From NCBI GenBank assembly GCA_014905825.1, contig JACGCN010000040.1, forward strand, positions 310,001 through 374,000: DNA of 64,000 bases. The letters run 5' to 3'. The translations under genes and the position numbers were made by a program. The notes beneath the pieces are model-generated. The model searched no databases and had not been told where the DNA came from. It saw only the letters and a program-made list of their open reading frames with translations. This document shows, one piece after another, positions 1,894 to 52,302 of the stretch (positions are counted from its first letter, which is position 1; each line of letters starts with the position of its first letter). Source of the stretch: Lyophyllum atratum (Eukaryota; Basidiomycota; Agaricomycetes; Agaricales; Lyophyllaceae).

Positions 1894-2870
1894 ATGAGCG
1901 ACCGAGGTAGCAGCTACTTGCAAGTTTTCAGTCCTAATCCCATTTGGTCTGAACCCTCAAGGAATCAAGTTAAACTGCCAGAGACGGCAGAGGACGATGA
2001 GACGGCAGAGGAAAACGAGGAGGAGACGGCGGTGGACGATGGGACCGCGGAAGAGGATGGGCCGGATATGGCGGAGAAGATGTTCGACTGGTGTATCGCC
2101 GAGCTTCAGTGAGGCAAAGACCTTTGAGACGACCGGCGCCGTCAGCGTGTACAATGGCGATGCCGTGAAATCTGACACTGCCGTTTCCGATTCACTGAAG
2201 GAGGCCTTGAAGGCCGCCGCTGCGCCACTCGAAGAGGTCCCTGCACGAGGAAAGGACTGGCATCCCGAATCTGACGACAAAGTACTGTGCCTAGTTCACC
2301 CGTCGCTCTTCCTCTTGATCTATGGCGCCGTCGAATTCTTCCAGACAGCCTCGTTGGTCTTGGTGATTGCATTGAACAGAGTAGTGAAGGAGTGATTATT
2401 CCTGCATCGGAAGAGATCGTCGTGACTCCCAAGCCAGCAAATTATTATTGGTGTCGGTGCACCTACACAACCCCCTACAGCAGACAATTCAGTGATTTCC
2501 CTGTGATCTTGACCTGTCTGGCGTGTGCGCAGCCTCAAGTACGTCGCAATTTCCCCTCGGCCCCTGCCCTCCTCACTCGCCTCCTAGGATTACGAGCTAT
2601 ATCAATAACTTTCATCGAGGACCATGATGACCTGTATAGTGTCATCGAAAAAGTCATCGCCTGCACGATCCCCTTGTGAAACATGACACTTACGCCGTTG
2701 AAGAACCCGGGCTCCAGATATATTCGCATCAAATACTCCAGATATAAACATGACCTAGATCCTGAGTCATGGCCCCAAAGCGAGGGACCACAGCCGGAGG
2801 AGGACGAGTATGAAGGGGAATATTATGAACGCAGGGAAGAATGGTATCGCAGCATCCGCGTCCGAGTCGC
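1894..2870 (+). pseudogene. DUF4246-family pseudogene
   Basis: Recognisable DUF4246 segments run in order along the plus strand but in different frames: AEKMFDWCIAELQ (frame of 1894), then TGAVSVYNGD and GKDWHPESDDKVLCLVHPSL (frame of 1997), then ILPDSLVGLGDCIEQ (frame of 2287), a short third-frame piece with ITSYINNFH, then DLYSVIEKVIACTIPL ending at TGA 2677-2679, and NMTLTPLKNPGSRYIRIKYS through RREEWYRSI. That is at least four frame changes plus a Trp-to-stop change just before NMTLTPLK. The C-terminal part of the family is not visible. No intron explains the frame changes. DUF4246 proteins are common, poorly characterised fungal proteins; this copy cannot make a full product. Confidence 0.8.
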
Positions 2871-3787
2871 TGGGTGCAGCCTCCGTCCGGTCGTCCTGCA
2901 ACATACCTTGATCAAGACTACGGCTATCGGTCATCGTTACGCATCTGGGGGACGCCCTGCCCGATACGTGGTTCTTTGGACTTGGTTGATGTCTCTTCAC
3001 TCCGAGGTCCCTGGACCGCGCCTGGCTTATTCCTTGGCGTCTCGAAGATGTTCCTCCGGCTTTTCAGAGCTCATCAGGGCACACCTCGTTCCTCTAACCG
3101 TGTAGAACAAGGATTATCGCCCTTCTCCCACCGTCAGGATCTCGGACGGTATAGCTGCTCGCGGACCGCTCCGCCGTCTGCGTCTGGTACCGTCTTGTCG
3201 ACCGCTTGGAAAGCGGCTGTTGGATAAAGACCTGCTGCATTTCGCCTGCCTCTGTGGGGATAGATACACGTTTTGCAAGAACACTAGAGACGAAACTAGG
3301 ACACGAAGAAAGATAACTCGAAGATCTCAGCCCTTGCTCGTATGTACTTGTTCGATCTATCTGTTTCTCTTTATCCATAAAGTTTACGCGTGTAGACCTC
3401 GTCAATCCGCATCGGAATATAAGTGGATATGATTCCGACCAGTTGGAAGAAGCGTTAGTAAAAACAGTTCAGGTTCACGATGAGCGCCATCTCAAATGCG
3501 TACGTGGTACTCTGGGTCTGTGATGATGGGCAATGTTTAACAATCGGATCGCAGCTTCGCGTTCCAATGAGCTTCAGAGTCAATAAACGGCACGCCAAAT
3601 AATACATAAAGAGGAACAACTAGGCGCTGAAAGGGACGATCGCGGCCAGGATTCGTATCTGAGTACAAGATAAACAATCAATCAGGCAGTCGTGGTGGAA
3701 CAACATTTCGCACACCTCGGGCTCAGCCTACAGCCCACCACCTGCGGAGCACGATACAGATGCGGACACTCCTCTTCTCGCGAGGTA
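2871..3787. other. Decayed intergenic DNA
   Basis: ORFs of 60-140 codons overlap on both strands with no family resemblance. The first part may include the unrecognisable tail of the DUF4246 copy. No RNA gene or repeat seen. Confidence 0.45.
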
Positions 3788-4930
3788 TCAACGCAAGTCC
3801 TTGCATCGAACGAGCTTCCTGTAAGTGTGAGGAGGACTCGCCACACAATCCTGAAACGCGACGTCCGCGACCACACAAACGATATGGCTTTGGGTGAACA
3901 ATCCCTCTGGCAACGGCAGGTTGTCGGCATCGAGATACGAGATGATGAGCTGGCGGATGGCAGGATCATCTACTGAGGAGAGATCCGGGTGAAATCCTGA
4001 GCAAATAAATTCTTCAACATAGTCGCAGTCAAAACTGTCGAAGGGTATGCATCCAGTATAGAGTTCCCATATGGTGATTCCGGTCGCGTAGAGATCGTTT
4101 GCTCTCGACAATGGAGCGCTGAGTCCCATCTTATGCTGAAAGGGAGAGTCATAAGTTACGGTGGAGGCAATGGCGTGTCGCTCTCGAGGCCCGCGCAGCC
4201 AAAATCGCAGAATCGTAGTTCGCCATCCGAAAGGCAGAACAGTATGTTCGAGGGCTTTATGTCGCCGTGGATAACACCTTTGGCGTGCAGGCGAGGGAGA
4301 AACTTGGTGAGCGCGTCAATAATACGCCTGGGAGAGGGCAAGGAGTCGAAATCTGGCGTGTAGCCCGCCTTGGAACAGGTAGGAGGGATCCGGCGAGCAA
4401 TGACCATCTCAAGGGGCATAACGATCCCGCAGAGCTTGCCATCATCGTATACTCGTCCGAGGGGTCGGATGGAGCAGTCACCGGCAGGGAGCATCATCAT
4501 CTAAAAGATCGGTCCTTATTATTCTTTTGGGGCGACTCATTATATCGCAGCTTCCTTGTGATGCATCTTGTTCTTCTGGCGGAAGAAGAGCCCGAATCCG
4601 TGGTAGTGGACAATTGGACGCTACTTTGACAGTGTTTTTGTGTTCAAATCTGACGGCTTGCCAGATTGCGACCGTGCACAAGTTTCACTGCGATTGCAAG
4701 GATTGAGTTCTTGGCGGCCTCAGATTAGTTTCTTGCTCAACGAAGAGTTCTTCACACAGGTATCCGGGGTCATGCAGAGTCAGATTCGGAAGCGCTTCAT
4801 TCCTGCCATTTGGGTCTACAGAGTTAGAAATGCAGCCGCAGGAACTGGGTCGTTGCCGGGCTCAATAGATTATGGCACGCCACACAACGAGAGATTCTCC
4901 ATCCAGGTATTGATGGTCATCGGGAGTCAT
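3788..4930 (-). pseudogene. Protein-kinase-like gene, disrupted
   Basis: Kinase signatures read right to left on the minus strand. HAKGVIHGDIKPSNILFC (catalytic loop) and LRFCDFGCAGL (DFG) lie at 4156-4500. The next block, TYDSPFQHKMGLSAPLSRA then DLYATGITIWELYTG, lies at 3788-4129 in another frame; the shift falls in the activation segment around 4150-4180 and no legal intron spans it. Upstream pieces with GYLCEELFVEQET and HKNTVKVASNCPLPRIRALL (near 4600-4760) match the N-terminal lobe of the same kinase type but carry in-frame stops. I infer a degenerate fungal kinase-like gene. An assembly indel could account for one lesion but not for all. Confidence 0.65.
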
Positions 4931-5131
4931 TTGGAAGCCCATCGTCCTTATCAATTGCGCTCACGGACCCTACAGCACGCCTTCATCCCTATCAATCTCT
5001 GCGCCCACAGATACACAGCATTAGTTGTCAAAGTTGACTCTTCGACGGTGTGGCCAATCCTAAAGCGACTGCACCCATTCCAAGAACAACACGTGCTTTG
5101 ACTCCTTCTGATGACGATTGTCCTCTGAAGG

Positions 5132-5138
5132 TATAAAA
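5132..5138 (+). promoter_or_regulatory. TATA box of the small Cys-containing gene
   Basis: TATAAAA lies about 90 bp upstream of a 5'-UTR intron donor (5229) and 166 bp upstream of the ATG at 5304. Position and sequence fit a focused fungal promoter. Confidence 0.5.
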
Positions 5139-5303
5139 CTATGGAAGGTTTGTCGTGGACGGTTAACCACACCTAGAACCATCGTACCCCATCAGCCTAT
5201 CTGCCTCAGCTCCGTTACTTTGCCTCTGGTAAGTTTGTCTCCATATCTGACCTGTAGTGACGTGTTGCTCATTGGATATCATTCCTCGCCGATCAGAATC
5301 GTA

Positions 5304-5537
5304 ATGTGCCAGACAATAACGACGAAGTACACGGGATGCCTCGGGGCGCCGAAGCATACATTTTTCCAAGATGTACCCTGCGACAATGCCTTGGCCAATC
5401 CCGCTCGCATTGCGTGGTGCCAACATATCCAGGACGAACCACCGTACTTTCCGGCTCAACACGCTGCGATGGAGACGTCAACGAAGATCCTTTGCCCATA
5501 CTGCAATTATCTCAGATACACGCTTCCCCAGCCTTAA
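5304..5537 (+). CDS. Small Cys-containing hypothetical protein (77 aa)
   Basis: ORF ATG 5304 to TAA 5535-5537. Visible features are an N-terminal MCQTITTKYTGC, two internal Cys and a C-terminal CPYC pair, a layout seen in small fungal proteins with a candidate metal-binding C-x-x-C. The gene looks real because it is flanked by two good introns lying outside the reading frame: 5229-5296 (GTAAGT..CAG) before the ATG and 5542-5595 (GTGAGT..TTTTTTTCAG) just after the stop. A TATA box lies upstream. No signal peptide. Function unknown. A longer product that splices out the stop is possible but no frame supports it. Confidence 0.5.
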   Translation: MCQTITTKYTGCLGAPKHTFFQDVPCDNALANPARIAWCQHIQDEPPYFPAQHAAMETSTKILCPYCNYLRYTLPQP

Positions 5538-5595
5538 ACGGGTGAGTATCCCTGCTACCGCTTTTTGAAATATTCTGATTGCTGCTTTTTTTCAG

Positions 5596-6522
5596 CGCTA
5601 CAAAATTCCCCGTCGTGCAACCGTCGTGTTTAGTAGCGACCGGCTTCGTTTACTACATACATGCCAATATTGTGGTCGAATATTGCTGAACAGCAAACAA
5701 TGATAAGTACATGGAAAGATATCATTATCTACCTCCTTCGTATAGGCTGTCCGCTCGTCCGACATCAAACGCTCGCGTGGTTATCCCGCGTTTACTTGGT
5801 CGTCTGGGATCCACTCTCAGCCGCTAGCATCTGCAGCGTGAATTGATTTTTGCCTTCGGCCCCTCTGGATGAAGGACCTTCAGTGTTCCGTTTATCGAGT
5901 TGCTACCAATGAGACCGAGCCTCGAGGGCCATTTCTGGAGTGAGTTTTGGGACCAGGAACAAAGCCGACACTACCTATCGAGGCTTGAGGGTAGATGTGT
6001 TAGTTCCCTGACAAACTTCAATGCACGATTCATATATGACCTGGTGGCATGGTGAGGATGCATTATGTTTTGTAGTTCTGAGGGCCGAGGTGGTAACAAC
6101 CATATAAATAAGCCTCGTCTGAACCGAGGTCGTGGTAGTAACGCACAGACGGCGACCTAATTTTGCTCCAGTGCTTGAATCTCGGCGGCTTCGCGCTTCT
6201 CAGTTTTCACCCTCCGGAAGAAAGTGGCTGCAGCCGCCGAGTGTCGAGACGAAGGAAACCTCTGACTTCGGCAGCAGTATTTGATGCCCCGAACGCAGAG
6301 ATGGCTCCGCCACTGCTCTTCACGTGGGGGCAAGGACTTGACTTCCTTGCAGGAACGCCTGAAGTTATAGAGAAGATCTGGGGCTGTACCAAGGAATATG
6401 CATATCCGAGTCGACCTGAGTCGACGTAATGCCACTGAAATGAGAGCCATTATACTACGAAGCGCCCGTGCTTTGCGGGGCGAAAAACGTTCGTCGATGT
6501 CCGTTGCAACTTTCCCCATCAG
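5596..6522. other. Intergenic, no supported gene
   Basis: A minus-strand ORF of 120 codons at 6157-6519 is Arg/Ser-rich with no recognisable domain and abuts the inverted-repeat element. Nothing else is supported. Confidence 0.45.
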
Positions 6523-6883
6523 TAGGGGTGCTCAATTCTGAGTTCAGTTCACGAGTTCAGTCCATCAACCACTTGTCGTTAGGACGTTGCTATGCTGCAA
6601 ATCACCGAGGGCTCGCTAAGGATTACCTTTCTCTGCTCGTTTTTCGCCACTTTTCACGCTGTATAACGTCGTGCACGACTCCAAAAAATGCGATTTTTGG
6701 TACGCTAAATGTAACTGTAATGAAGATGAAGTAGGCAAAAAAAGCAAGGATTTGGAGCACAGGTTGACGATCTTTCTTGATTTTCCTGAGATTCATCCTC
6801 CAAACCCTCGGACTTCGAAACTTACCAGGCACACACAGTGATGGACTGAACTCGTGAACTGAACTCAGAATTGAGCACCCCTA
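6523..6883. mobile_element. Non-autonomous inverted-repeat element (MITE-like), 361 bp
   Basis: Positions 6523-6567 and 6839-6883 are perfect 45-bp inverted repeats, beginning TAGGGGTGCTCAATTCTGAG. Both ends carry TA, consistent with TA target-site duplication as in Tc1/mariner-type elements, in which case the true terminus is GGGGTGC. Inside each arm the motif GAGTTCAGT occurs twice, so the arms are themselves internally repetitive. The 271-bp centre has no transposase-like ORF. Perfect arms suggest a recent insertion. Superfamily assignment is inference from the TA ends. Confidence 0.8.
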
Positions 6884-7207
6884 GTCGCACACATGCTCGT
6901 GCGTGCCCAACCACACCGCGAACATGCCAGAACTGCCTGCTACGCCTCTGCCCACTCCAATCCTGCCGTAGCTCCCGTCGCCAAGAGCACTTGCAAAGAC
7001 ACAGGCTAGGAGCTACGGATTTATCCATGTCATCATTCCGCATCTGCATTTATTATTGATGCAATTGCGACCATCTACGCACAGGACAGCGGGAACAGCC
7101 AAGATTCATTGAGGGTATACGAGGCCGTCATCGACCATGATTGGGACAGTAAAGAAAGCCGACAGGGCTAAAGACGTCAGAACGATAATAAACCACGAGA
7201 GAGTACA
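6884..7207. other. Intergenic between the element and the F-box gene
   Basis: No ORF with family resemblance and no RNA gene; it holds the probable 3' UTR of the F-box gene. Confidence 0.4.
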
Positions 7208-8274
7208 TCACCAATGACACCCCCATACCCATGGGCCACAATTAAGACTGTGACCGAACCGGAAGGTTGTTTCGATTTCGGAGCTGCTTCTGGTCAAAAT
7301 GATTCGTAATAGAAACATGAATGCCACGACATACAAGTTCCGGTCACCAACCGCAGCATAGGTCAGTCTTGCCCACGGCCCCGGAAGCGGCAGGTGCACA
7401 ACTTCACGAAGCCTCTGATTTGTCTGCACCTCGCTCGCAAAGTCTACGCCCCACCGATCATGTCGCCAAGCGCACCTGCTATAGATCTTCCGCACTGACG
7501 GATTTTTGACGACCTGCAGGACTACGTCGTTGCCCTGCAGAGAATAGGCTCGCGGGACATAGACGACTTCCAGATGCGGAGCATGAGCCAGAGTGCGGGC
7601 CAAGTCGATTCCACGTTGCCGAAGAGCTACGGGTTCCCGAGCGGTAGAATCATGATCCCACCCATAATCATCGTACGGATAATCAAAAGACGTCTAATCA
7701 AGACAAGAAAGCCCAAATGAACATTCATGTCATGGTTATGAGCTCGAGGGCTACTGACCATGTTCGACCAAACACCCTTTATGCATCTGATGAGCGCGTT
7801 AACGACAGTGCGCACGCCTCGGTTGGACAGGTGCCTTCGATCACGCAGGACTACGTGGACAGGATTGATGCGCTCCAGACCAGCACAGAGTCCCATCACA
7901 TTCTGCCCGGAGGAAATATCAAGGGATATGGATATGTGAGTGAGTTGCGGGGCGGACGTGAGGATGAAGCTCAGTGAGCCGCCACACCCTCCTTCGATGC
8001 GGAGTTTCCTGACATGGGAGCCGAGAGACTTGCGTTGGCGCAATAACCGCGCAAACGCTTGACTCTGCTTCACGGACTCCAGAAGGGTGACCTGGTATGT
8101 AAGAGGAGTGCCCACACGCAGCCAATTTTTGCAAACGAGAAGTAGGGAGACCGCCTCCGTGCGGTGACGACGAAGGAGATTTGGAGAGCGATTGGCGAAG
8201 GCGTCGTAATCAACATCAAGGCAAATCTGCAATACTTCGTGGAGGAGTTCCTCGGGAAGTGCACACACGGCCAT
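7208..8274 (-). CDS. F-box domain protein (agaric type)
   Basis: Exons 7759-8274 and 7208-7693, joined across a 65-nt intron (GTCAGT..TTGATTAG), phase 0. Start chosen at ATG 8272-8274 because it gives MAVCALPEELLHEVLQICLD, a typical F-box N-terminus; the frame stays open upstream but without another plausible ATG. It continues LLVCKNWLRVGTPLTYQVTLL and leucine-rich segments such as LRIEGGCGGSLSFILTSAPQ, the usual layout of basidiomycete F-box/LRR-like proteins. The F-box binds Skp1 and the C-terminal part would select SCF ubiquitin-ligase substrates. A further small intron starting GTATGT near the 3' end is possible and would slightly shorten the protein. Confidence 0.75.
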
Positions 8275-8661
8275 GTGCAGTGCCAAAGGGAGGTCAGTAC
8301 GAGCCGGGGTAACAAAGGCCGTGATTCTGAGAACTCCAGAACGTGGACTTTTCGGTGTCAAAACACTTATCAATAGTCGAAAAATATAATGTGACTAGGT
8401 AGCCTAACTTAGTCTCCAAACAGACCTTATGTAACAGATGATAGTCGATCTGTTATTATAAGAGCCTAACTTGACAACAAAGCAAACACGGACGACCATT
8501 CACAGTCTTGACTAATGTTACATTTGACGACATAGCAGCACACTGGGTGGAACAATTCGAATAATAAAGCTCTACGATATGATAACGACACACGGCGGAT
8601 ACTTCCTCTGCCCGCCTTTTGACCATGGACTCGGAAACACTCCCAAAGCACAGGATACGGC
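8275..8661. other. Intergenic
   Basis: Short AT-richer stretch with two copies of AGCCTAACTT about 75 bp apart (8400-8475). It contains the eL8 3' UTR and the F-box upstream region. No gene seen. Confidence 0.4.
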
Positions 8662-9957
8662 TTAGAGCTTCTGAATGGATGCAACGGAGATACTTTGACC
8701 AGATTCTTTGGCGCGTTTACGGAGCATGTCCTTGGACTTGTTACCACGGAGACCTCCACCCCACTGGCGGCGATGGTCCTCGTATTTATCATTGCTACAA
8801 GGCAAATATATGAGCACGCGGTGTGTCATGATCAAAGCGTATGCGGGTAACATACAAATTAGCCTTGGCGGCGGACACGAGGGTGGCGAGCTCGCGCTGG
8901 TCCTCACTCCTCACATCCTGAATGGCGAGCACGGTAGAAGTCTTCAGGTGGACAACTGTGCCGAGACGGGATTTGCCCTTGACGATGACGTAGGGGACAT
9001 CCATCTTGCGGCAGAGAGCAGGGAGGAAGATCACGAGCTCGATAGGGTCGACGTCATGGGCAATGACGACAAGAGATGCCTTCTTAGCCTCGATGAGGGC
9101 GACGATGTGGTTAACGCCGTACTTCGCGAATAGGGGTTTCTTGGTCTCCTGTGCCACAAAACGGATGAAACCCGGAAAATTGACGTGAGCGAGTAGACAA
9201 ACCTGAGGCGCTGCATCCTGGTTCTCCTCGGCAGCAGCAGCGGCGGCGGCTTGAAGACGAGCTTTTTTCTGGTGCTTGTCCTCAGGACGGTACTTGTTCA
9301 GGAACTTGAACAGCTGGATGGCGGTGTTCTTGTCCAGGGTGTGAGAGAACTGGGCGATTGGCGGAGGGACCTTGAGTCGTTGAATGAGGATGATCTTGTG
9401 ACGCTGAAGGCGGACATATTCAGGCCACTTCACGAAGCGGGTCAGGTCCCACTTGGGACGGATAGCCTGGCCTAAATATCCTTGGCAACCTACGACAACA
9501 TGGACAATTGAATTCCTGCTCACCGATACCGAAGTTCTTGGGGTGGGGCTCGAAGAGAGGGCTCTTCTTGGTCTTGCCAGGTTTCAAGGTGGCACCGATA
9601 GGGGCGGGAGCGGGCTTTTTTCCTCTTCCGGGTTTTGGCTGGTTATCGAGACGAGGTGTCAGCAATGGAACTGAGAAGGAAGTTGACAATGCGCCTCAGA
9701 GCTCTAGCGTTTGTATACAGAAGTGTAAGGCAACCCCGCAAAACGGGACCATCATTGTCTGGGTATATGGCCATGTTCTATACGAAGAACGCCAGATATA
9801 AAAATTTACTTGAGGGTAGTTCTGCGAAGTTGCTAAGTTACTTGTCATGAAGGTCATCCAAACAAAGAACTTACCACCCATCTCGAAGTCCGTCGATTTT
9901 GAGATTCCGAACTGCCAATGCTAGAGCTCGTCGTAACGAACGTCGGATACTCACCAT
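8662..9957 (-). CDS. RPL8: 60S ribosomal protein L8 (eL8, L7Ae family)
   Basis: Exons 9955-9957 (ATG only), 9524-9638, 9203-9471, 8856-9148 and 8662-8794 give 270 aa. Diagnostic text: [72 protein letters not shown] and [16 protein letters not shown]. These are the conserved L7Ae-type RNA-binding core and C-terminus of eL8, a structural protein of the large subunit. The ATG sitting alone before the first intron is common in fungal ribosomal-protein genes. The start is the uncertain part: the 315-nt first intron also contains a GTAAGT near 9870, so a non-coding internal exon or a different short N-terminus is possible. The intron may also hold a small RNA. Confidence 0.93.
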
Positions 9958-10501
9958 GTTGGTCCACTGATAGTCTTGAGGACGTCGAAAGAGGTGATCT
10001 TGTTTGGAGGTTGCGGCGCAAAGATAGGTCTCAGCCGACTCACTTGTGAGACACGAGCGGAACGGATGAACCGATCACAATTACGGCCTGGACGCGGCGC
10101 GATGAACATTCTAGTTGCATTCTAGATCTTCTGAGACCAGTCGCACGTTGAATCTGTGATTAGCCATGTCAAGCAAGACCAAACGAGCCCGCCCGAGGGT
10201 AGTCAGCGGTCTCTAGCAAGTTGTTGACCATAGCAAGTCCTTCCATAAAACCTCCTTACTTGCATCTTCAGGACTTCGATGATTGTTCATTGTATATGCG
10301 CAAAGGCAGGAGAACGAAGAGATAAGGTGAGACAAGATAGAGAAGTCCGAAGTAAGATCCTGCAGAATTCGTTCGCATCTAAGTAAGTCTGGTTCGAGGG
10401 TCCACTCCAACCATATCCAGATGTTGAGTCCTGAATGACCAACGGCCCCGTTCCCACATCGAGCTTGTTTCCGGGTCGACAGGTACTATGGGTGGGTATC
10501 G
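9958..10501. other. eL8 promoter region and intergenic
   Basis: Pyrimidine-rich sequence (minus strand CTCTTTC near 9985) just upstream of the eL8 ATG fits a ribosomal-protein 5' leader. The rest shows no gene. Confidence 0.4.
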
Positions 10502-11415
10502 CTAACGCAGAAGGGTGTGAATTGAGTCGACGCCGATGACCGGGTGAAAGAGGACGTGGTGTCGAGGAATGACATTGGGCTGGAAAGAGTATATGCCAAT
10601 GGGACCTCTATCGACCACGGCGTTGGCATCTTCGACGGGGGGAAGTGTGTCATCCTGATGTGATGCAACATGGGTAAGGCGCAGAATGGTCAAGCAAAGG
10701 AAGTAACTCACGATGGTGGCCTTGGTTTGGACATCCCCCGCGAAGACCCGGAATGGGAAGCACTTGTCCAAGATGATAGTAACGTCCTACAGGATAGGAT
10801 GAGGTCGGGCACGATGCAGAAGAGAAAGAAAGAGACGTACGATCAAGTCCGCCGCAGTATCTCGAAATAAAGGACGGCCGTGAGGAGCACCGTTGCAAAG
10901 GCCATCATGATACAGAAGCTAACGTTGTTATCAGCGCCCGGTGTAGGCTTGATGGCACTAGGCGTGGCGCAGTGATGTTGGCAGCCGAAGTTGAGGTGTT
11001 GCTGGTAATAATGGCGAGGTCAACAGTCGGGACGCCGACGAAGGTGACGGTGACCTTTCGCGGGATGATGTCTACCAAGGCGGGGGGCTGTACGAGTCGG
11101 CCGCCTACAGAACAGGTGGGAACGCATGAGATAACTAGACAGGGCGTGGAGAATATATGGATCGCAGGGAGGGCGGCGGCAGAGGTTATAGGCAAGTCGG
11201 GAGCTGAGATGGAGAGAGTCGAGGTGCTAGTGGACGGTTGCATCCTTGGAAGTGGCAATCGCCATTAGCAAAGTGGACTTGCAAGGGAGAATTGAGGCGA
11301 GGAGGGAGACGGAGGTGGTGCGGGTCACTTTGCGAGAACCCTAGCGGCGGCAAAGGGCAGGGGGACGCGAAGACTATCGACAGGGTCGAAGGAGGGAGGG
11401 ATAGCGGAGAGAGCA
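10502..11415 (-). CDS. Unresolved multi-exon gene, possible membrane protein
   Basis: The 3' part is well supported: exon 10712-10786 (DVTIILDKCFPFRVFAGDVQ) joins exon 10502-10654 (PVEDANAVVDRGPIGIYSFQ to stop) across a GTGAGT..CATCAG intron, and is preceded by a GTACGT..TGTAG intron. Upstream there is a Ser/Thr-rich segment (RKVTVTFVGVPTVDLAIITS) near 10990-11080 and a hydrophobic helix (MMAFATVLLTAVLYF) near 10880, but they lie in three frames and I could not join them legally. A TATAAATA at 11467-11474 and the first ATGs near 11410 mark the likely 5' end. It is either a Ser/Thr-rich ectodomain plus one membrane helix with missed small introns, or a partly decayed gene. Family not recognised. 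Confidence 0.4.
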
Positions 11416-11466
11416 TAGTGTGTACATCGTAGTCAATTGGACAAAGACGATCGAGAAAGTGGGCTC

Positions 11467-11474
11467 TATTTATA
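11467..11474 (-). promoter_or_regulatory. TATA box for the unresolved gene
   Basis: TATAAATA on the minus strand, roughly 50-60 bp upstream of the first ATGs of the unresolved gene. Confidence 0.4.
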
Positions 11475-11848
11475 CGAAAAGCTTGTTGAATGGCTGACAA
11501 ACTGTCGCGTACGCGTCGCGTCCTGTGCATGTGACCCATTGCGGAGGCATATCCGAGGTCGTCTGGGTAGGAGTGCTCGTCAAAGCTCGTCAACAGCGAG
11601 CATTCGAAGGTCGGAGGTGGAGATGGAAGTGCTAGAGCCTCGAGGTTCGCAATACTGATTTGCACTGATGCGCCATCAATAATAACTCCTTTAATTGTCA
11701 ATGATTTCAAGTGACTCGAGAAAGTATTTGTTCTAGTGCCGTATGCCAAATAACCGCCGTGTAATTTAGATTCTGATTTGAACCATCAACAGGATTTTGG
11801 TTTCGCCCAGGTGCAAGTCTTAGATTTGCACATCGCCCATTGAGCTAC
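11475..11848. other. Intergenic with an ORF fragment
   Basis: A minus-strand reading near 11600-11700 (SLTIKGVIIDGASVQISIAN) resembles an LRR/F-box fragment but has no start or partner exon. A GTGCAA..TTGCAC hairpin lies at 11811-11832, just beyond the RIT1 stop. Confidence 0.35.
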
Positions 11849-13522
11849 TCATCTCCCGCCGCGCCCTCCGGACATCAAGAACTCATTGACGCGCTTAAGC
11901 GTCACCCGCGCGGGGTTCACCCCCGGCCTGCACGCAATGATCCATTCTAGCCGCGTCCGTATGCGCGTCTTGTCCGTGTCAGGCGGGATCACCACCTTCT
12001 GTAGCAACCCTTGCTCGTTCCCCTTCTTCTCTACGCCGACGTCGTCTTCCTCCGCTTCAGGAGTATTTGTAGTATTCCCGCCCGTGAAAGAGATAAAGAC
12101 GCCTTCGCCGTCGAAAGACACGACAAGTGCAGCGAGGAGGATGGCTATGCCCTCGTCGCCTAACTCCGACTGTTGGTTTGCGTTCTCGCCACCACAGACG
12201 ATATAGACCTTCCGCCCCCGCGACAGCTGTACGTCGATGAATGGGAGCGCGCGGGGTAGAAGGGTTTGTGTCAGATGTGTTTTGACTCGAGGGGCGAGGG
12301 AAAGTGTCAGAATTTGCTTATTCGTCTGCTCGTGTCCCGAGGGGTTTGAAGTTGGAGGTGTGTCCGAGGGCTTTGTTGGTAAGAGCACATAGGCCGCATC
12401 TTCCTCCCTCCCTGCCTCCTTGAGCTCGGCGAACGTGCAAAGGTTCATCCGGCCACCGACTTTCGCGATTGCAATAATTTCGCTACGCTTAGTGATGCTG
12501 TAGTCGTTGCTGTTGCCACCAAGGTCCGAGGAAAGAAGTGTCTTTATAAGCTCAGATAATTCAGGGCGGCTGGCTGCGAGAAGCGTAGACGCATGCCGCC
12601 AATAGTGAGTCGGTGTAAGGCCCTACGTCAACGAAGTCAACATCCAGCTACGCAAAACTCTGAGCCAAAGTGAAGGGCTCACCATACTCCACAGCTCATG
12701 GTCATCGCCCGAACCCTGGATATACGCGAACCCCCCAGGTCGACGCGCGTCATCACTTTGCCGAGAGGCAGAAAGGCATATTACAGGGAGAAAGGGCGGA
12801 GGATCTAAATTTGGGAAGGACGGGAAGGTCGTCGTCGCTGGGGTTATCCAGAAAGGCCGAAGAGGCGCGGGCAGGGCTGGGAGTTCGAAGGAGGAGTTCT
12901 AAGTATGCCAATGGATAAGCAGAGGGAAAATCGGATAAGGAGCAAGTTGGACATACGAAAAGTGCGTCTGCCCATGCATCGATGCGCTGCTCTATCTGGT
13001 GATGTTCCTGTGCGCTGACGGCACCAGCGGCTGTGTAGAGGGCCATATCCCATGTAGCCTTGTCTGGTCCAGGAAAACGGCGCGCGATGGCACGATTGAC
13101 GACAGCGCACCATATTGGTACAGTCTTCGAGAGTGCATCGGGGATGCGCTTGCCCGCCCTGGTGGAATCTACAAGCAAGATGCTGGATTGGCGACATCAG
13201 TGCCGATAAGCCACGATGCAGATGGGACGCACCTGTTATACTGGGCGATAAAAGGAAGGAGATGAAGGTTGGCCCGCCGAAGATTGAAGCCCCAGTTATT
13301 GAAGTGACCATCCGTGGACTTGAAATAAGCCGGGACATTTGAAGCTATTGCCGGATCGGTGTACCAAGCGCCACACCGCAGGTTTGGAACCAGAGGCACT
13401 GTAGGGTAGAATTCATGTACGTGCGCCACAAAAGCAGCATCGTCTGCGATAGAATGGAGGCGGTTGTAGATGTCCAGCGACTCGCGACGGAGTTCCTGAA
13501 GAACGGAGGAAGGCTCGTCCAT
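11849..13522 (-). CDS. RIT1: Initiator tRNA A64 2'-O-ribosylphosphate transferase (Rit1)
   Basis: Exons 13233-13522, 12957-13182, 12683-12898 and 11849-12622 close in phase to 501 aa (yeast Rit1 is of similar length). Hallmarks: LRCGAWYTDPAIASNVPAYF, KSTDGHFNNWGFNLRRANLH, VDSTRAGKRIPDALSKTVPI, FAYIQGSGDDHELWS and the C-terminal TRLEWIIACRPGVNPARVTL then KRVNEFL. Rit1 adds a phosphoribosyl group to A64 of initiator Met-tRNA in fungi and plants so that it is used only for initiation. The N-terminal catalytic and C-terminal phosphatase-fold regions are both present. It faces the SET gene head to head with 55 bp between start codons. Confidence 0.95.
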
Positions 13523-13577
13523 TTCCGGGGCTTATCTAATCTTTCTTGATTCATCTGATCGTGATTTCCAGATTTTC

Positions 13578-14832
13578 ATGGCTTCATCCTCGTCGTCGTC
13601 GTCGACGTTCTCGATCCACACGCTCTCGTTCCCCGATGCACCAGATTCGCCATGTGCAGTGCTCGCTGACAACCGCATTATCCCGCATCTGCATGTCCCG
13701 GCACACCCAGCCCGTTTAACGCCTCTTGACGCAGACGGCAAACCATGCTTCGAGATTAGAACCGCCGGTGCTGACAAGGGCCTCGGCATGTTTGCGACGC
13801 GGCATATCCCAGCTGGCGCTCTCATTCTCGTCGATCATCCCGCAATCATAACTCCCGCCAACGTCCCACTCGTCGACGACGCCCGCTCCTCTGCCTACCG
13901 CGCCCTATTCGATGCTCTTCCCAAACATCGACGCGACGAGTTGCTCACCATGACGAATTGTCGGACTTCGGAGGAGTGCGAGACAATGGAGGAAGGAATC
14001 TCGCGGACAAACGGAACTGCCATTGAACTTGGCCTCCCTGACGAGATTGAGACCGAGGCAAGGGAGTACGGCGCCGTTTTCCTCACTATCAACCGCAGCA
14101 ACCATAGGTAAGCCACACCCTCCATTCCGACGCCTATTCCCTCTCACCCACGCCTTGCAAGTTGTGGTCCGAACGCTGCGCACAAATGGGATCCCGCCTC
14201 ATTCTCATCCTCCCTCTTTGCCCTTCGTCCCATTTCCCCCTCTGAAGAGATAACGATGATCTACACCGACGTCACCCAACCACGCGACACGCGACGCGCA
14301 CGTCTCTTCTCGCATTACGGGTTCATGTGCCTTTGTCCCGTATGCAAGCTTGCCCCTCCTCTCAGTGCGGAGTCGGACGCGGCCCGCGCGGCCCTTCGCG
14401 ACTGGCGACACACGCGCCCGGCCTTCGCGGGGTGGGCGACGGATCTGTGTCGCGCGGATGACTTTGTGTTGAAGTCGCATATGGAGGCGCTTGCGCTGAT
14501 TGAGCAGGAGGGTTTGCAGGGGATGGAGAGCGCGTTCGTGAGGGACGTGTGTTTGTGCTGGGCAATGCTCGGGGAGGAGGAGCGTTTTAGAGAATGGGCG
14601 AAGAAGCTGGAGAGACTGAGTGAGGTACGGGACCCTGTGATGGCAAGAGAGGTGAGGCGATGGTTGGAGGATCCGGGGAGGAGGGTGCCGAAGTGGGGGT
14701 GGAGGAAGAAGCAGAGGATGCGTGAGTTGGCAGGTTCGTTTTGGTGGCTGGGGCTGATCATTCTGTGCAGAGATGAGCAAGAGGGAGGCTGTAGAGTCAC
14801 CCGAGGCATACTACTCACCGCTGTTGTTTTAG
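13578..14832 (+). CDS. SET domain protein (SMYD/Set5-like)
   Basis: Exons 13578-14107, 14162-14721 and 14771-14832 give 383 aa. The SET core is clear: GKPCFEIRTAGADKGLGMFA then TRHIPAGALILVDHPAIIT, NRSNHSCGPNAAHKWDP (the NHSC catalytic motif assembled across intron 1), and a post-SET-like GFMCLCPVCKL. Such proteins methylate lysines of histones or translation factors; the substrate cannot be told. The poly-Ser start (ATG 13578) is the first ATG. The last intron (GTGAGT..GTGCAG) avoids a frame that would otherwise run 50 codons further, so the short C-terminus (SPEAYYSPLLF) is inferred. It shares a very short promoter with RIT1. Confidence 0.88.
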
Positions 14833-15383
14833 ATGACATGCGTGCCTCCCTTGGAGACGCAGCTACATATAGAGCGTGGCAAGTGCATGGATTGTACTGC
14901 AAATGGAGTGATATCCGGTCTGGACAAAGGCAGACGACGCGTCAATTGTATCTTCTCAGAGAATTTACCGGAAGGAAGTGAAGTCTTCAAAACGCAGGGA
15001 CAGCTTGAACATATTGCCACGAGCATTCAAGCAAAGCGATTCTTCTTGATTTCTATTTTTAGAATATTGATCTGTTCAACGACTCCCACGCACTCTCATC
15101 CTCTTTCAGTATCCTGTGCGTGGCACAAACTCGACGAAATCCGTCATGTACTATCTCAACAGCAGCCAGTCCTATCGCCCTGAGGAGCACTTGCCAGGTT
15201 GACATGTCCGCATATGGGGGCATCTAGTTCGCAAACTTATGTACAACCATATGTGGTCGAAGACGGGCAAACCTGTGCTCAGGAGTAAGGTCAACCTGTG
15301 TAGGTCCTTTGCAGAGTTATATCATCACCATTAATATCGCTATGTCTTCTTGACCCCCTGGATCTCACTACATTTCTTGCTGG
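14833..15383. other. Intergenic upstream of the homeodomain-kinase gene
   Basis: No ORF with family resemblance; CT-rich leader-like sequence precedes the next ATG at 15384. Confidence 0.45.
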
Positions 15384-17600
15384 ATGTCGGACTATCTCCC
15401 AAATCCTAGGATGATGAATGGCGAAGATGAGCAGGAACTCGACAACGGCGCCTCTTGGCTGCAGTCCATTGGGTCGGCGCACACTGGACCTCTCCTTGAT
15501 CCGTTCACGCCAGGTGCCTCCACAAGTGATTATGCATCGCCATCGCCCAACCCTATGACAGGAGCTGTTTTTTGGCAAGGGCAGCCCAACGACTCTAACG
15601 AACCCTCACCCGCCTATCCGCCTACCTCCTATTGGCCTGAGCTACAAACGGATCGTCCCATATATCCATACACGCCTGAAGAAATCGAAAATTGGAAGAT
15701 TACTACGAAGCCTCAAAAGCTCACTCTTGAGGCTGTCTTCCAACGCAACATATCGCCAGATGCCTCATCGCGTGCCCAACTTGCTGATGAACTGGGAATA
15801 ACTACAAGGCAGGTTCAGGTGCGTCTGTTTCGTCTTTCTCTGGCTTTTTCTTGTCTAAAGTATGGTCTCTGCCCCCAGGTTTGGTTCCAGAATCGGTGCG
15901 ACTCCTACATTCGTTTCCAACCAATTTTATACCAACGATGCATGACAGACGAGCCAGAGCAAGGGCTAAGGAAAGAAAAGCCGACATCGCTCCGCCTCCC
16001 AGGGACTCTGTAGGAGATAGTACAATACCACTGTCGAGCTCAGATCAAGACGCCTCGCCCTTCATTCCTCGCCTCATAGTGCACAACGAAATTCTTGATG
16101 CTGCCATTCCTCCCGACGCATCCCAACCCTATTCAAAGAGCGATCCTGAGGAGGCTGCTAGCACCATTGCGATTATAGTCACGAGACTCACGACCATCTT
16201 CAATGATGTGGCCCTGTATAAGAAACTGCTCAGCTCGCGAGATTCGGACGCTCAACAGCTGCTCGACTTATTTCAATGGGTGCGTATAACATGCTTGTGC
16301 TGATGTACAGTATAGCGTCTGACCTTTCAATAGCTTTTAGATGCTCCGGCAGTGGACTCGGTAATTAGGCGCAGTCTTATCGTTGCGATGCAAAGACTTT
16401 CGCGAAAGACAGGGCTGTACCCTGCGTGCTATAGTCTTCAAGGGGTCGAATATGGTGGTGATCCTGTAGCAGCTGGAAGCTATGCCGACATCTACAAGGG
16501 AACCATGGGTGATCAGCCGGTGTGCATGAAAGTTATCAGAGTCTATCAGACGACGCAAGTAGGCCACTTTTTGAAAGTAATTTCAGTCTATTCTGTTACC
16601 ATTCTTACATTTAACCTGGGTCTATTCTTTAGGCTTGCTCGAAGGAGGCCATTCTTTGGGGACAACTTTCGCATGCCAATCTACTCCCAATATATGGTCT
16701 ATATCGCCTCAACACTCGGATATGTCTCGTTTCTTCATGGATGGAACATGGAGTTATCACTCAGTATTTAGCCAACTATCCGGACGCGGACCGTCTTCTC
16801 CTGGTGAGCATCTACTCTACTTGAACCTGACAGAAAACTCACGATCTCCAGGTCTTAGATGTTACTCAGGGACTGGCGTATCTACACGAGAACAAGATCA
16901 TTCATGGGGACTTGAAAGGGGTACATCTCCCCTTAGCGCTCAGCATCCTATATCCTGGCTGACAGTTACTGAAGGTTAATATTCTTGTTTCTAAATCTGG
17001 AAGGGCATGCGTTGCCGATTTTGGCCTTTCGTCTATATCAGACGCAAATATCCTGGCTTGGACATCCAACTCGTCCGCTGCATCCAAAGGCGGTTCGATG
17101 AGATGGCAGGCTCCCGAGCTATTTGACCTTGATAATGATGAGCTTGTCCAGAACGATGAGGCTAGTGACATGTACGCTTGGGCCTGTGTTTGCTACGAGG
17201 TACGCGAATCATATTCCGGTAAGGTTCAAAGCTGACCTCGCCAAAGATATTCACAGGCAATGTTCCGTTCTCGCATCTCTCGCGGGAGTCGGCAGTGTTG
17301 CTACAAGTACAAGCTGGCAGACGACCACCCCGCCCCCTAAAGTCGAGCCCACCGTGGCTTACCTGGGGCCTAAGGGAGGATATGTGGTCGTTGATGGACG
17401 ACTGCTGGAACGGTGACTCTACTAAGCGTCCCACTGTGCAGAATGTCCTTGCTCGGCTGGAACCCATGCTTCCTCGAGATCGAAGACCTGCTGATAGTGG
17501 GGAAATGCTTACCCCTGCGCAATTTCGCGAGACGATGCGAGCACCTCTGGACGTCCGATCTATTTTAGAAACGCTCAAACAGGTCTCTAATCCTCCATAA
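15384..17600 (+). CDS. Homeodomain-TKL protein kinase fusion
   Basis: Eight exons close in phase to 614 aa: 15384-15818, 15879-15895 (17 nt), 15949-16279, 16334-16576, 16633-16803, 16852-16920, 16975-17199, 17247-17600. Residues ~105-163 form a homeodomain with LADELGITTRQVQ then VWFQNRRARARAKERK. Residues ~300-575 form a TKL-type kinase: glycine loop VAAGSYADIYKG, VCMKV lysine (K327), HGDLKGVN catalytic loop (D419), ADFGLSS (D437), MRWQAPELF. All catalytic residues are present. The linker SSRDSDAQQLLDLFQWLLD and MQRLSRKTGLYP is the usual N-terminal extension of Agaricomycete TKL kinases. Crucially, exon 15949-16279 alone is one open frame running from the end of the homeodomain recognition helix into this kinase extension, so the fusion does not depend on one doubtful splice. 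No signal peptide or membrane segment. Role unknown: a kinase able to bind DNA, or a DNA-binding factor under kinase control. Confidence 0.88.
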
Positions 17601-17966
17601 ATTCTTGACTTCTTAGGGATTCCGGATTCCAATTTAACTGTAGAAATCTCGTTGCTTGTTTTAGTCCGACATTACTCCATCATGTTCACCACTGCTCGTA
17701 CCATGGTTTTTTGAACATAATAGCCCGTATAGTGGCCAACGGATTGCTGTTGGTTTAGTGCTCCAGCGTAAATACTGAATTTCTCTCCACGTTCAAGTTG
17801 CCGTATTGTGTTTGGGTTTGTGTGGTGAAACTCGGACCGGTGAATCATTGTCGAATGGGACTCCAAAGCATCCAAGCTGGAAATTCTACATTCACTCCTT
17901 GGGACGGTCTAGCTGTCTGAACCTCCCTACAAGCTGTGCATATGTATATGAGCTCGTATACTTCCG
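17601..17966. other. Intergenic between the kinase gene and palB
   Basis: No gene signal; contains the palB promoter. No clear TATA box. Confidence 0.45.
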
Positions 17967-20900
17967 ATGAACAGACCCACTCGCCCCGTTGATCACGAAG
18001 CCGACGTGCGTGCCATCCCGTTCTTATGAAAATGACATCAACGTTCATGACATCGGATACAGCTGACCTACACTAAAGCTGCGAAGGCCGAGCTATCGTG
18101 CGAGTACGACCTTGCGTTTCGTCTTTACGTGAAATCGGCCGAGCTCTACCTCCATCTTAGCCGGTCAGGTACCGGCACCACGCCAGTACAAGCAGCGAAG
18201 TGTAAAGCGAGCGCTGGAAAGGCCCTGCAGCGGGCGGAGATGATCAAGGCTTTTGTGGACAAGCAAAAGGGTCCGAATTTGCAACAAGATGCCACGACCG
18301 GAGTATCCGGTACAGAGTTGAATGTCAACCTCACACCAATTGGCATTGATCACTTTTCGACGCGTGCGTGTGTAGCAGTTTTCTCAGCAAAGAATTAATG
18401 CCGACGCCCGCTTCTATGCACCGTTTAGAAGAACAGGCATATGTCTTAAGGAAAGGGGGATCAGTGAATGGACTATTCTTCCCTTTGTGGGACGAATATG
18501 CCCCGGGTTCTGCAGGCCCTTCATGTTCCACGTTATATGAGTATGTTATCGCCTCGTACGTCTATCACGCCTCCCTAACTGTGTGCAGAGACCCCGATGG
18601 ACAGCCTAAACTATCTCCGGAGCAAGCCAAAGTATCTCCTGTCTGGCGTCGCGGGCCTCTACATGAAACAGGTACTTCTCGGGATCATGAATACCGTCAA
18701 ATTCTTCCACGGGAAATACTTCAACACATCGTGACCGATTGCTCTGTCTGCGCCTCTATCTCTGTTTGTCTCGAGCACTCCCGGCGGTTCGGGTCCAATG
18801 TGAGTCGAGAATATCTATTTGAAGTGAAAAGGCGCTAGATATTTTCCATTAATTCAAAGCTAGCTGAGGCAGCAATAAACCACGTTTCGAAACGCACTTC
18901 AGACGACGAGGAACCACATTCCTCGGGAAGATATGATATCAAGATCCTTTTTAATGGTGCCTGGAGACGGGTAGGCTGTCTTTCCGTATGTTCCAGAGTC
19001 GGTGAACGTTCATCACTGTCTCTTTTCTACCTATCAGATCGGTGAGCCCTTACTCTCCCAATTCTTGATGAAAATGCTTATGCCAGTAGTTGTCGACGAC
19101 CGACTCCCGTACCACCCCGTGGACGGAACACTGATGTGCATGTCTGTACTGCCTAGAAAAGATGACTTGACTTCTCAGCGGCCAATCTTATGGCCCAGCA
19201 TCTTAGAAAAAGGAGTGAGTACGTCCATTCCTAAGGATCCCCTGGGTTTACAGTGTCATGCGTTACTTTTCTTTCTTTCAAGTACATGAAACTTCTGGGT
19301 GGATATGATTTTCCTGGATCGTTCGTTTGTGATACTGCCGCTCTGGACCGATTGTGACTCACGGCGCTTCTGTATACAGCAACTCAAGTATAGATCTCCA
19401 GTAAGTTACCTCCGCCCCTCAGGCTTTCATAGTGCAGCCCCTCACAACACCTACAGCGCCATCGCAGGTTGGATCCCAGAGCACATTGAGATCAGAGGGT
19501 GTGTCTCTTACCATACATCGCTTTGTTTTATGGTTCAATCGCCTCACGAAGATCGAGCTTCGAGCGAGAGAAATCCTGGGACAGGATTTTGGAAGGATTT
19601 TCAAGCGGTCAGACAATAGTTTCTCCCTTGCGAACTCATATCGATGCAGTAGATTATATACCAGGACGTTGCGTCCTGACTCTAGGCACAGGGACAAACA
19701 CTCTCGTTTCATGGCGGGAAGTAGAGCTTCTGCCGTCACATAGCTATGCGGTAATCGGTAAATATACTCGCATGGCATCCCGACTATTTTTGCTCGACCG
19801 CTCACAGAAAACCGTAGACGTGATTGAAGCAGAGGGGGCCAGGATTTTGACCGTCCTGGACACGTGGGTCAAGCCAAACCACGAAAATCAATCAAAAGAA
19901 CCATCTAGTGTGTTCTCCAGTCTTTTCTAAGGAGGGTGTTTCAAGGATTAACGTGAGCAGAAGCATTGCAGATACCTTGGTCGGACGTATTGAATGTCTT
20001 CGATGGAATATATCTCAGCTGGGATCCTTCACGATGGGCCAACAGTTTAACTTTCCACGGGTATGCTGCACTTCGCGTTTTATCAATACTTTCAATTCTC
20101 ATATAACGTGTAGTATGTGGAAGCGGCGGGGCCAGGATGAGCAATGTTAGTACCTCCAGCTTATGCTCCTCACTTCGCCTCACCTTGCATAGCTTCCACT
20201 CGGCAGATGTATCTCCGGTTCGGAAAGCGTAGCCCAACAATTGAACAGGAGATCTGGGTCCTATTGACGCGCCATGTGACGGATTCGAGCCGTACGTCAG
20301 ACTTTATCTCACTGAGAGTAGAAGTAGAAGACGAGCTGCGGAGTACTTCGCATGTCGTTGACCAGACGACGATTGCTGCCAAGGTAGGCCAGACTTCGAA
20401 TGCGCCGAACATGCCGACGAGTTTTGAACTTTTGTCATAGGGCACGTACACAAATAGCACTCACGTTCTGGTAAGCAACCGTAGACTAATGCGAACGCAT
20501 GGGGGACTGACGAGTTGTACAGATTCGGACCAGAGTGCTGGCATCTCAGCCTTCTGGTGTCTTGTCAATTTTCACATCGTACGACGGTGGCGCAACGGAA
20601 ATTGGATTCACTCTCACTGCGTGTACCACGTTCGACTTCGATATTGCCTGGGACGAAACAACTCAGACGCCTCCATTCACAAAGAGGGTGAAGCAACTGG
20701 CCCGCCTTTGTGTATTCGTGGTCGCTAAACTTTTCTCCTCTCTAGCTTGAGGGTGTCCTGACAAGCAAAAACGCCGGCGGAAACTGCACATACCCGACTT
20801 TCATGCTCAATCCGCAATACTATCTTCAAATACACCCGCGGATTACTAGTTCCGCCTCCGCAGGGACAGCCAAGGCGAAAGTGGCCCTCACATTGCAGAC

Positions 20901-29857: not shown

Positions 29858-30408
29858 TGCTGTAATACAGGATAATAGTATCTTATTTGTTACCCAGATC
29901 CTTGGCCCTCACTTCTTCTGGTGCAATCTGAAAGTGCTCAAGAATATGGTCAAACGTCTCTCGTCTGATGATTCGGGGGAGGGGGTGTTGATACAGGGTA
30001 CTTGGGACAGGTATCTACTTGCAGGATGATGAGAAGGGCTAATGCTACTGACTACTATGTAAACTACTGACTACAAATGCTACGTAAAAATGAGGATAAG
30101 ATGTGACAGGGTGAGGGACAGTGGATGGGCGCATGTCGATATGCGCCGTGACGCGGCCATGGGACAATGTAATGGGACAAATGGTAGGTAGGTAGGTAGG
30201 TAATGACACATGTTTAGAAGAATCAACAGAAACCAGAAACCGGACACAAGGGATGGGGGCAAATGACTACAGCTACGCAAAATCCGGATGCAAGAGACGA
30301 GACGAGGAAAGCACATTAAATAAAGGGGGTACGCAAGTGGGGGGATGCCGGTCGCATCCGCGTAGACAATACAATTCGATGGCTGTCTTGGGGGGTTGAC
30401 TGAGCACT
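29858..30408. other. Convergent intergenic with a GGTA microsatellite
   Basis: 3' UTRs of the lectin and transportin genes. Contains the repeat at 30183-30202. Confidence 0.5.
30183..30202. repeat. (GGTA)5 microsatellite
   Basis: Five perfect tandem copies of GGTA in the convergent intergenic region. Confidence 0.9.
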
Positions 30409-51158: not shown

Positions 51159-52302
51159 TCACCAATGGCCGAGATCGACCTCGGCGAAGTCGAATCCAAC
51201 CTCAAGCCAACGGTCGACCCCTTCAACAGCAGGTCCGTCTTTTGAAAGGCCGGCGAAACCGACGCGGTGGTACACATTTGTTGCTGCCTGGTTGTCGTGG
51301 GCGACATAGAGAACCACACTCTCTTTGCGGCCAGGCCCAGTGAGCAAACTATCACAGAACTTGTTAGTGATATGAACATCGACCTGCTGGGGGAATAGAC
51401 GCACTGTTTGCACACGCGCCGAACAAGGCGTTCCGCACAACCACGTCGCCGCCATTTGGGGTTCGTGCAGACTTTAGTGATCGCTGCTACTTCGTCACTG
51501 TTCCGCGTGAATGCTACAATGGAGGCAATTTCTTTTGGCTGCCCGGGGTTACGGGCCTCGTGCACCCATACTAGGTTCTTCGCTACTGACAGAGCGGCTT
51601 CCTCGTCTGCTCTGGATCTTGAGAGGCAGAAAGGGAACTGCGAATGACAGGAAGGTTAGAAAATGAAAAGATTCTGAAGTGGATCATACACACTGATTCC
51701 TTTGCGAACAGGAAATTCAACTCTCCAATTGCAGGTATGTCCTCTGGCGATGCGGGGCGGAGGTTGTACCCAAGAGAGACGTCGATGGTGGCATTCCGTT
51801 TATCCAGATTTTGGGCTGTGCAATACGATATTTTGGCGGCGTAGAAAGGCTTGTCGGCATAGTTCCCAATGCCTTTGAAGTGCGTCCATTCCTCTGCGAA
51901 CAGTAAAGTGATAGGCTCTGCCGCGAAGACGGAGTACACACGACGCCGGGGAACGGCGTCGTCTAGAGCTCTGACCAGCATATTAATGCATGGTCGGATA
52001 TAATCGTCGGTGAGAGTGTCAAAGGGAAGGGTTGTGAATATGAAGATAGGATATGAGCCCATGTCTCCCTCAGTGACGCCGAGAATGAACTCGATCCCGG
52101 AAAGCGAGCTGCAGGTGATCCAAACAGAAGGAGGCGCGCTTCTACTGACAGGGTTTCGCTCCTGGGAGAGCGCCTTGAGTGCTTGGGGTAGAATAACATT
52201 TGCGTTCCTAGGGCTGGCGTGGAGCGCGTCCCACACGGCCTTGGGAAGCTCCCCTGCACTGCGGTAGGTGTTGGTAAAGAGATTGGATGGCATGGAAGGC
52301 AT
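51159..52302 (-). CDS. GNAT-family N-acetyltransferase
   Basis: Exons 51694-52302, 51405-51637 and 51159-51348 give 343 aa. The C-terminal half carries the GNAT fold: YNLRPASPEDIPAIGELNFL, IASIVAFTRNSDEVAAITKV, the acetyl-CoA loop NPKWRRRGCAERLVRRVCKH (R-R-x-G-C-A variant of Q/RxxGxG/A), and YVAHDNQAATNVYHRVGFAG. The N-terminal half (residues ~1-170) has the alternating pattern seen in fungal GNAT-like proteins that carry a degenerate first domain. Substrate unknown; a small-molecule or antibiotic-type acetyltransferase is as likely as a protein one. Confidence 0.85.

Follow-up and report, generated by a model that had tools for sequence, protein, structure and literature searches.

A predicted chimeric gene of Lyophyllum atratum that joins homeodomain exons to a mushroom-family protein kinase

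The 64,000 nucleotides of Lyophyllum atratum DNA analysed here (assembly GCA_014905825.1, contig JACGCN010000040.1, positions 310,001 to 374,000; this whole stretch is called the window, and its contig C87) contain, at window positions 15384-17600 on the plus strand, what we read as a chimeric gene, in which homeodomain exons run in frame into a protein kinase of a family found in mushrooms. We predict that its product is a nuclear kinase, taken by its homeodomain to the partners or the target sites of the transcription factor from which the homeodomain came, and we give this reading as a whole a probability of about 0.45. What can be read from the DNA itself is a single open spliced frame in both haplotypes, an exon 3 flanked by introns of the two families, and intact catalytic residues.

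One open spliced frame through a chimeric exon

The rebuilt model has eight exons, 614 open codons encoding 614 amino acids, and seven GT-AG introns of 47-60 nucleotides (nt). Its parts, in window positions, are the following.

15384..15818, plus strand: exon 1, with the start codon, a disordered-looking N-terminus (residues 1-91), the homeodomain arm, helices 1-2 and the start of helix 3 (to Q145)
15819..15878, plus strand: intron 1, 60 nt, phase 0, with the position and phase seen in the homeodomain factor of contigs C108 and C143
15879..15895, plus strand: exon 2, a 17-nt microexon encoding VWFQNR (up to the first two bases of R151), equal in length to that of the C108 factor
15896..15948, plus strand: intron 2, 53 nt, phase 2, a homeodomain-family intron; it contains the ATG (15938-15940) at which the deposited protein P0001 starts
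15949..16279, plus strand: exon 3, chimeric, with the end of homeodomain helix 3 (RRARARAKERK), an unmatched linker and the start of the kinase-family helical extension (to W261)
15960..16140, plus strand: linker-region DNA within exon 3; its own allele was the sole match found in a genome search at the sensitivity used, and the fusion junction would lie in or beside it
16280..16333, plus strand: intron 3, 54 nt, phase 0, the conserved kinase-family intron
16334..16576, plus strand: exon 4, with the remainder of the helical extension, the glycine-rich loop and the catalytic lysine K327
16633..16803, plus strand: exon 5, kinase N-lobe, with the alpha-C glutamate E347
16852..16920, plus strand: exon 6, opening the C-lobe and reaching just past the catalytic loop HGDLK with D419
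16975..17199, plus strand: exon 7, with D437 of the DFG motif and the APE motif (468-470)
17247..17600, plus strand: exon 8, with the end of the kinase C-lobe, the C-terminal tail and the stop codon

In the spliced model, Pfam places a homeodomain (PF00046) at residues 107-156, with 64.2 bits against a cut-off of 22.9, and a kinase domain (PF07714) at residues 306-568, with 128.3 bits, corresponding to a complete TKL-like kinase (E 4e-37). An earlier note on this DNA had placed a homeodomain and a kinase in one gene; this is borne out by the open model, which holds both domains in both haplotypes, and the note's numbering of K327, D419, D437 and APE is reproduced exactly.

Exon 3 makes the strongest case for one gene: the introns that flank it differ in ancestry, being of the homeodomain family on its 5' side and of the kinase family on its 3' side. 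First, the homeodomain factor of contigs C108 and C143 has counterparts of intron 1 (phase 0), the 17-nt microexon and intron 2 (phase 2, after NR), with the same positions, phases and microexon length, while a further homeodomain factor, on C88 and C97, has only intron 2 in common with the fusion gene. Second, intron 3 comes after the kinase-family motif AQxLLDxFQx. Among 28 kinase loci of L. atratum, some of them overlapping, this motif was absent from two (L024 and L025); the other 26 reduce to 22 distinct sequences, with several allelic pairs, and all 22, fusion gene included, have a GT at the codon boundary of intron 3 and an acceptor before [LVI]LD 48-60 nt further on. The helical extension and the conserved intron after FQ[W/x] are thus both found, which places this kinase in the mushroom kinase family that carries such an extension.

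Exon 3 lies within a single open frame that runs from 15791 to a TGA at 16301-16303 and, as had been noticed before, holds both the end of helix 3 and the kinase-family extension. Against the Pfam homeodomain profile the sequence scores 40.0 bits when exon 1 is read through, 56.2 bits when exon 2 is spliced and intron 2 is read, and 66.3 bits when splicing continues into exon 3; this rise indicates that exon 3 completes the homeodomain. The arrangement was also found on contig C69, which carries the same 8-kb stretch as the window on the opposite strand, at 91-92% DNA identity, and which agrees at 94-95% with the window in three further stretches; for these reasons C69 is taken to be the other haplotype. 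Its copy (L009) has 615 codons, keeps all seven GT-AG pairs and gives both domains. Based on the introns of two families around exon 3, the completion of the homeodomain by that exon and the retention of the arrangement in both haplotypes, we treat the locus as one gene, with a chimeric exon built from two families and a family intron marking either end.

The haplotypes also differ by an inversion that includes the fusion gene and covers at least window positions 2000-20400, corresponding to C69:713730-730574: window 2000-4000 and 12401-20400 match the minus strand of C69, and 30000-32000 and 52000-54500 its plus strand. From 16250 to 16425, spanning the end of exon 3, intron 3 and the start of exon 4, 176 bases are identical between haplotypes, the longest such run in the 8 kb compared; against the difference of about 11% in exons 1-2 and the introns, this may be a gene-conversion tract. 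The first 581 bases of window 2000-4000 match C87:208755-209336 at 92%, and parts of it match contigs C57, C74, C60 and C70 at about 68-76%; to judge from these matches, this is a dispersed repeat or gene family.

The kinase half and its relatives

The kinase half matches the protein kinase profile and fold, and its catalytic residues are intact: K327, the alpha-C glutamate E347, D419, D437-G439 (DFG) and A468-E470 (APE). The arginine of the HRD motif is replaced, giving HGD; of the 120 listed relatives 37 were aligned, P0001 among them, and every one has this glycine, so HGD is a trait of the family. An apparently active kinase, as the earlier note had it, is what these residues predict. The kinase domain is strongly conserved: between haplotypes its ratio of nonsynonymous to synonymous rates (dN/dS) is 0.07, from 9.5 nonsynonymous against 34.5 synonymous differences (P 6e-15).

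The TKL label rests on resemblance, since both TKL and tyrosine kinases occur among the matches, in sequence as in structure. By sequence, the best solved chain is the Src-Abl ancestor (4csv), followed by RAF and B-Raf, and the VIA-align structure rows, which cover residues 141-429 of the P0001 model, mix RIPK1, RAF and tyrosine kinases. The catalytic loop reads DLKGVN and lacks the AARN motif, described in the part of the FslK paper available to us as diagnostic of tyrosine kinases (PMC3937382). The predicted structure of P0001 (mean predicted local distance difference test score, pLDDT, 80.8) has a kinase fold, low confidence at residues 14-60, and four predicted helices at 70-140, equivalent to residues 217-287 of the spliced model.

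Relatives of the full protein were taken as the best 120 of 1,533 hits, from 7,994 candidates scored, with domains read from a precomputed Pfam column. A non-kinase-like Pfam domain, PF19974 not being counted, is present in 29 of the 120, and these domains include GATA, RPA, RhoGEF, G-alpha, SAM and ENTH, together with others that, from their accessions, we take to be WD40, BTB and HECT. A scan of ten of the 29 put the extra domain ahead of the kinase in four (P0012, P0050, P0065, P0120) and behind it in six. Some of these relatives may be gene-prediction errors; if they are partly real, the homeodomain fusion would exemplify a tendency of this kinase family to join with other genes.

A FastTree phylogeny puts the fusion gene, together with its allele, on a long branch for which no sister is supported (local support 0.36). 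Besides these two, its 115 rows comprise 113 of the 119 remaining relatives listed; the other six were dropped for a match below 300 residues or below the cut-off, and P0001 was omitted as the same gene. A protein of Collybia nuda, P0030, which starts MVRRSFSRQ, was considered as an orthologue cut at the same place and was dropped, as its match to residues 148-221 is not significant. The family that bears the extension is large in L. atratum, with at least 156 exon matches (150 of 166 candidates scored), many of them allelic pairs. By eye, the relatives P0002, P0003, P0004 and P0009 appear to be tandem kinases with two kinase units (P0002 has two matched stretches), a layout that resembles plant tandem kinases.

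The homeodomain and the competing explanations

W48, F49, N51 and R53 are important residues of the homeodomain recognition helix, and all four are kept in both haplotypes, within VWFQNRR at 146-152. The homeodomain exons are free of frameshift, stop and splice loss in either haplotype. Exons 1-2 differ by one indel, of three bases, whereas 18 indels, of which 14 shift the frame, separate the haplotypes over 1,224 bases of flank and intron; at that rate exons 1-2 should have about 5.2 frameshifts, and none is seen (P ~0.006). With the indel-rich 3' flank left aside, the expectation is 4.7 (P 0.009).

Several observations weigh against the reading given at the outset. First, the basic N-terminal arm has been lost, reading E3 N4 W5 K6 I7, and E3 N4 W5 N6 N7 in the allele, where the C108 factor has K3 H4 R5 K6 R7. 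Arg5 of a homeodomain contacts the minor groove, and its replacement by Trp, with loss of the basic arm, has probably weakened DNA binding. Thus, the description of this homeodomain as canonical in the earlier note holds for helix 3 and fails for the arm. Second, constraint between haplotypes is weak: dN/dS is 0.56 (P 0.052) for exons 1-2, 0.52 (P 0.2) for residues 92-161, with nine nonsynonymous and five synonymous differences, and 0.31 (P 0.067) for the Pfam homeodomain core, the last trending below 1. Exons 1-2 diverge by 10.8%, compared with 11.0% for the introns, 5.7% for the 5' flank and 15.3% for the 3' flank. In codons 1-82 of the C108 factor, by comparison, none of the four allelic differences is nonsynonymous and all four are synonymous. 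Divergence in exons 3-8 is 4.9%, and the linker has a dN/dS of 1.63, from six differences only. The homeodomain is therefore kept open, yet it changes more quickly than that of the C108 factor, to which it is most closely related within this genome. Third, PF00046 is found in none of the 120 listed relatives, so that no orthologue of the same architecture was recovered, and the deposited records that we found show the two halves apart, a kinase-only protein (P0001) and a homeodomain stub (P0121).

The absence of orthologues, which the earlier note had named as part of what would refute the fusion, stands as a negative, but a weak one, as the searches made with the homeodomain were insensitive: residues 86-166 gave no match at E <= 0.001 among 114 candidates, the 168-residue N-terminus returned P0121 alone at E <= 1 among 64 candidates, and neither search returned ordinary homeodomain factors. 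Within L. atratum, 22 homeodomain matches are listed, and, among the matches listed, a kinase-family match lies within 10 kb only at the fusion gene and its allele (none of the 20 others). A protein comparison of stretches taken around these matches found one other kinase, upstream of the C108/C143 factor, which we take to be Wee1-like. This closest homeodomain factor lies directly downstream of that kinase gene (L017:2500-5300), which looks like an ordinary separate kinase and not a fusion. We found no description of a homeodomain-kinase fusion in the literature searched, which, with the lack of PF00046 among the relatives, is consistent with the earlier claim that no such family is established. 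Hence the fusion looks lineage-specific and, as far as these searches reach, its architecture is a new combination of two known families.

The sequence of events that we favour can be outlined as follows. By duplication and recombination, a kinase module, consisting of extension and kinase, would have ended up within exon 3 of a second copy of a homeodomain-factor gene. A single transcript would cross the homeodomain and kinase exons, and its product may enter the nucleus through the basic helix 3 (RRARARAKERK). There the homeodomain, as a targeting module from the duplicated transcription factor, would attach to partners or sites used by the parent factor, and the kinase would phosphorylate proteins near the bound site. 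Since the basic arm is missing, the homeodomain would more probably dock on proteins or bind DNA weakly than bind a specific sequence strongly. A kinase acting at specific DNA sites, as first proposed, is accordingly possible but less well supported, given the lost arm and the weak constraint; docking, nuclear import or a decaying passenger are as likely. Should a single protein result, it would be a kinase carrying its own module of DNA-binding type, and thus a short route from signalling to genes.

The main rival, which we consider possible if somewhat doubtful, also accepts one chimeric gene but leaves the work to the kinase; the homeodomain would be a fading passenger that mainly gave a promoter and 5' exons, and a kinase-only product might start at the ATG of intron 2. 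The contrast in dN/dS between the kinase (0.07) and exons 1-2 (0.56), the divergence of these exons, which equals that of the introns and exceeds that of the 5' flank, the loss of the basic arm, and the intron-2 ATG, present in both haplotypes and used as the deposited start, are all as a passenger would have them. Such decay is harder to reconcile with homeodomain exons that have escaped frameshift, stop and splice loss in either haplotype, with the retained helix 3 residues and with a core dN/dS that trends below 1.

A bolder version of the targeting reading is, in our view, unlikely. It makes the product a homeodomain-guided kinase, the first enzyme brought to genes by its own homeodomain, within a kinase family that would have taken over the front parts of conserved regulators time and again, to serve as targeting modules or baits, as a fungal counterpart of plant kinase-fusion receptors. 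Still less probable, and based on analogy, is an integrated bait, in which the homeodomain would be a captured copy of a regulator targeted by an antagonist, and the kinase would signal when it is hit, as in the model of plant kinase-fusion resistance proteins set out in the portion of PMC10260397 that we consulted. The varied extra domains of the kinase-family relatives (29 of the 120 listed) and the fast-changing homeodomain agree with this idea; on the other hand, the other fusions come from gene prediction and may reflect faulty annotation. Moreover, the heads of the RPA-kinase P0050 and the ENTH-kinase P0120, both from L. shimeji, match L. atratum genes that have no adjoining kinase-family match among the matches listed, and for this reason these two fusions were not used as proof of a general rule.

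Equally improbable are two separate, abutting genes as deposited, the first a short homeodomain gene, the second a kinase gene with its start in intron 2. The NCBI models do read in this way: P0001 is a kinase-only protein of 467 amino acids, identical to our model from its own fourth residue (R151) on, and P0121 is a homeodomain stub of 162 amino acids from the C69 haplotype. P0121, however, ends by running into intron 1, where it stops without WFQNRR, and P0001 takes its start from an intron-2 ATG that lies 11 nt upstream of the exon 3 splice site. Neither model has the 17-nt microexon, which is present in the homologous factor, and the homeodomain is completed by the first codons of exon 3. 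The two records are probably halves of a single gene, split by the missed microexon, which suggests why automatic annotation overlooked the fusion. The same blind spot may hide further homeodomain-kinase genes in mushroom genomes, where the kinase family is large and often modelled with other domains. Finally, an artefact of assembly or annotation that joined two loci, to which the restriction of the fusion to one species among the listed relatives might point, is scarcely credible for a gene found on two separate contigs, one per haplotype, at 91-92% DNA identity over 8 kb, with exons and introns matching.

Comparison with known systems

The chimeric gene can be compared, part by part, with systems already known. 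By sequence, its kinase and extension resemble those mushroom TKL-like kinases that have a helical extension at the N-terminus, such as P0016 and P0023 of L. atratum, P0012 of Tricholomella and P0014 of Hypsizygus; the HGD, DFG and APE motifs are common to 37 proteins, and the position of intron 3 is common to the L. atratum paralogues. It differs from them in its homeodomain, found in none of the 120 listed, and in the long branch of its kinase among 113 relatives. Its homeodomain is closest to the factor at C108:1961459-1961674 and on C143, with 49% identity over residues 74-146 and the same 17-nt microexon and flanking intron phases, but that factor has an intact basic arm and a long C-terminal region where the fusion gene has the kinase.

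Regarding the joining of kinases to DNA-binding domains, the GATA-kinase models P0035 and P0049 of Tephrocybe belong to the same kinase family, but they are predicted gene models and their zinc finger comes after the kinase, not before it. HIPK kinases bind homeodomain proteins, so that their action is tied to homeodomain factors, as we propose for the fusion; they contain no homeodomain and belong to a different kinase group. A survey of fungal kinases, in the part that we could consult, lists the transcription-factor domain Fungal_trans once (PMC2838846), which is a precedent for such a domain on a fungal kinase, although a different domain and not a homeodomain. The fungi-specific kinase lineage FslK is described, in the passages available to us, as expanded in Agaricomycetes, without tyrosine-kinase motifs and with extra domains in 16 of 241 members; its likeness to the fusion kinase comes from remarks on motifs only (PMC3937382). 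Plant kinase-fusion resistance proteins such as Sr43, as presented in the part of the source that we saw (PMC10260397), likewise combine a kinase with an unrelated domain, and it is by this layout only that these plant proteins and the fungal fusion are likened here.
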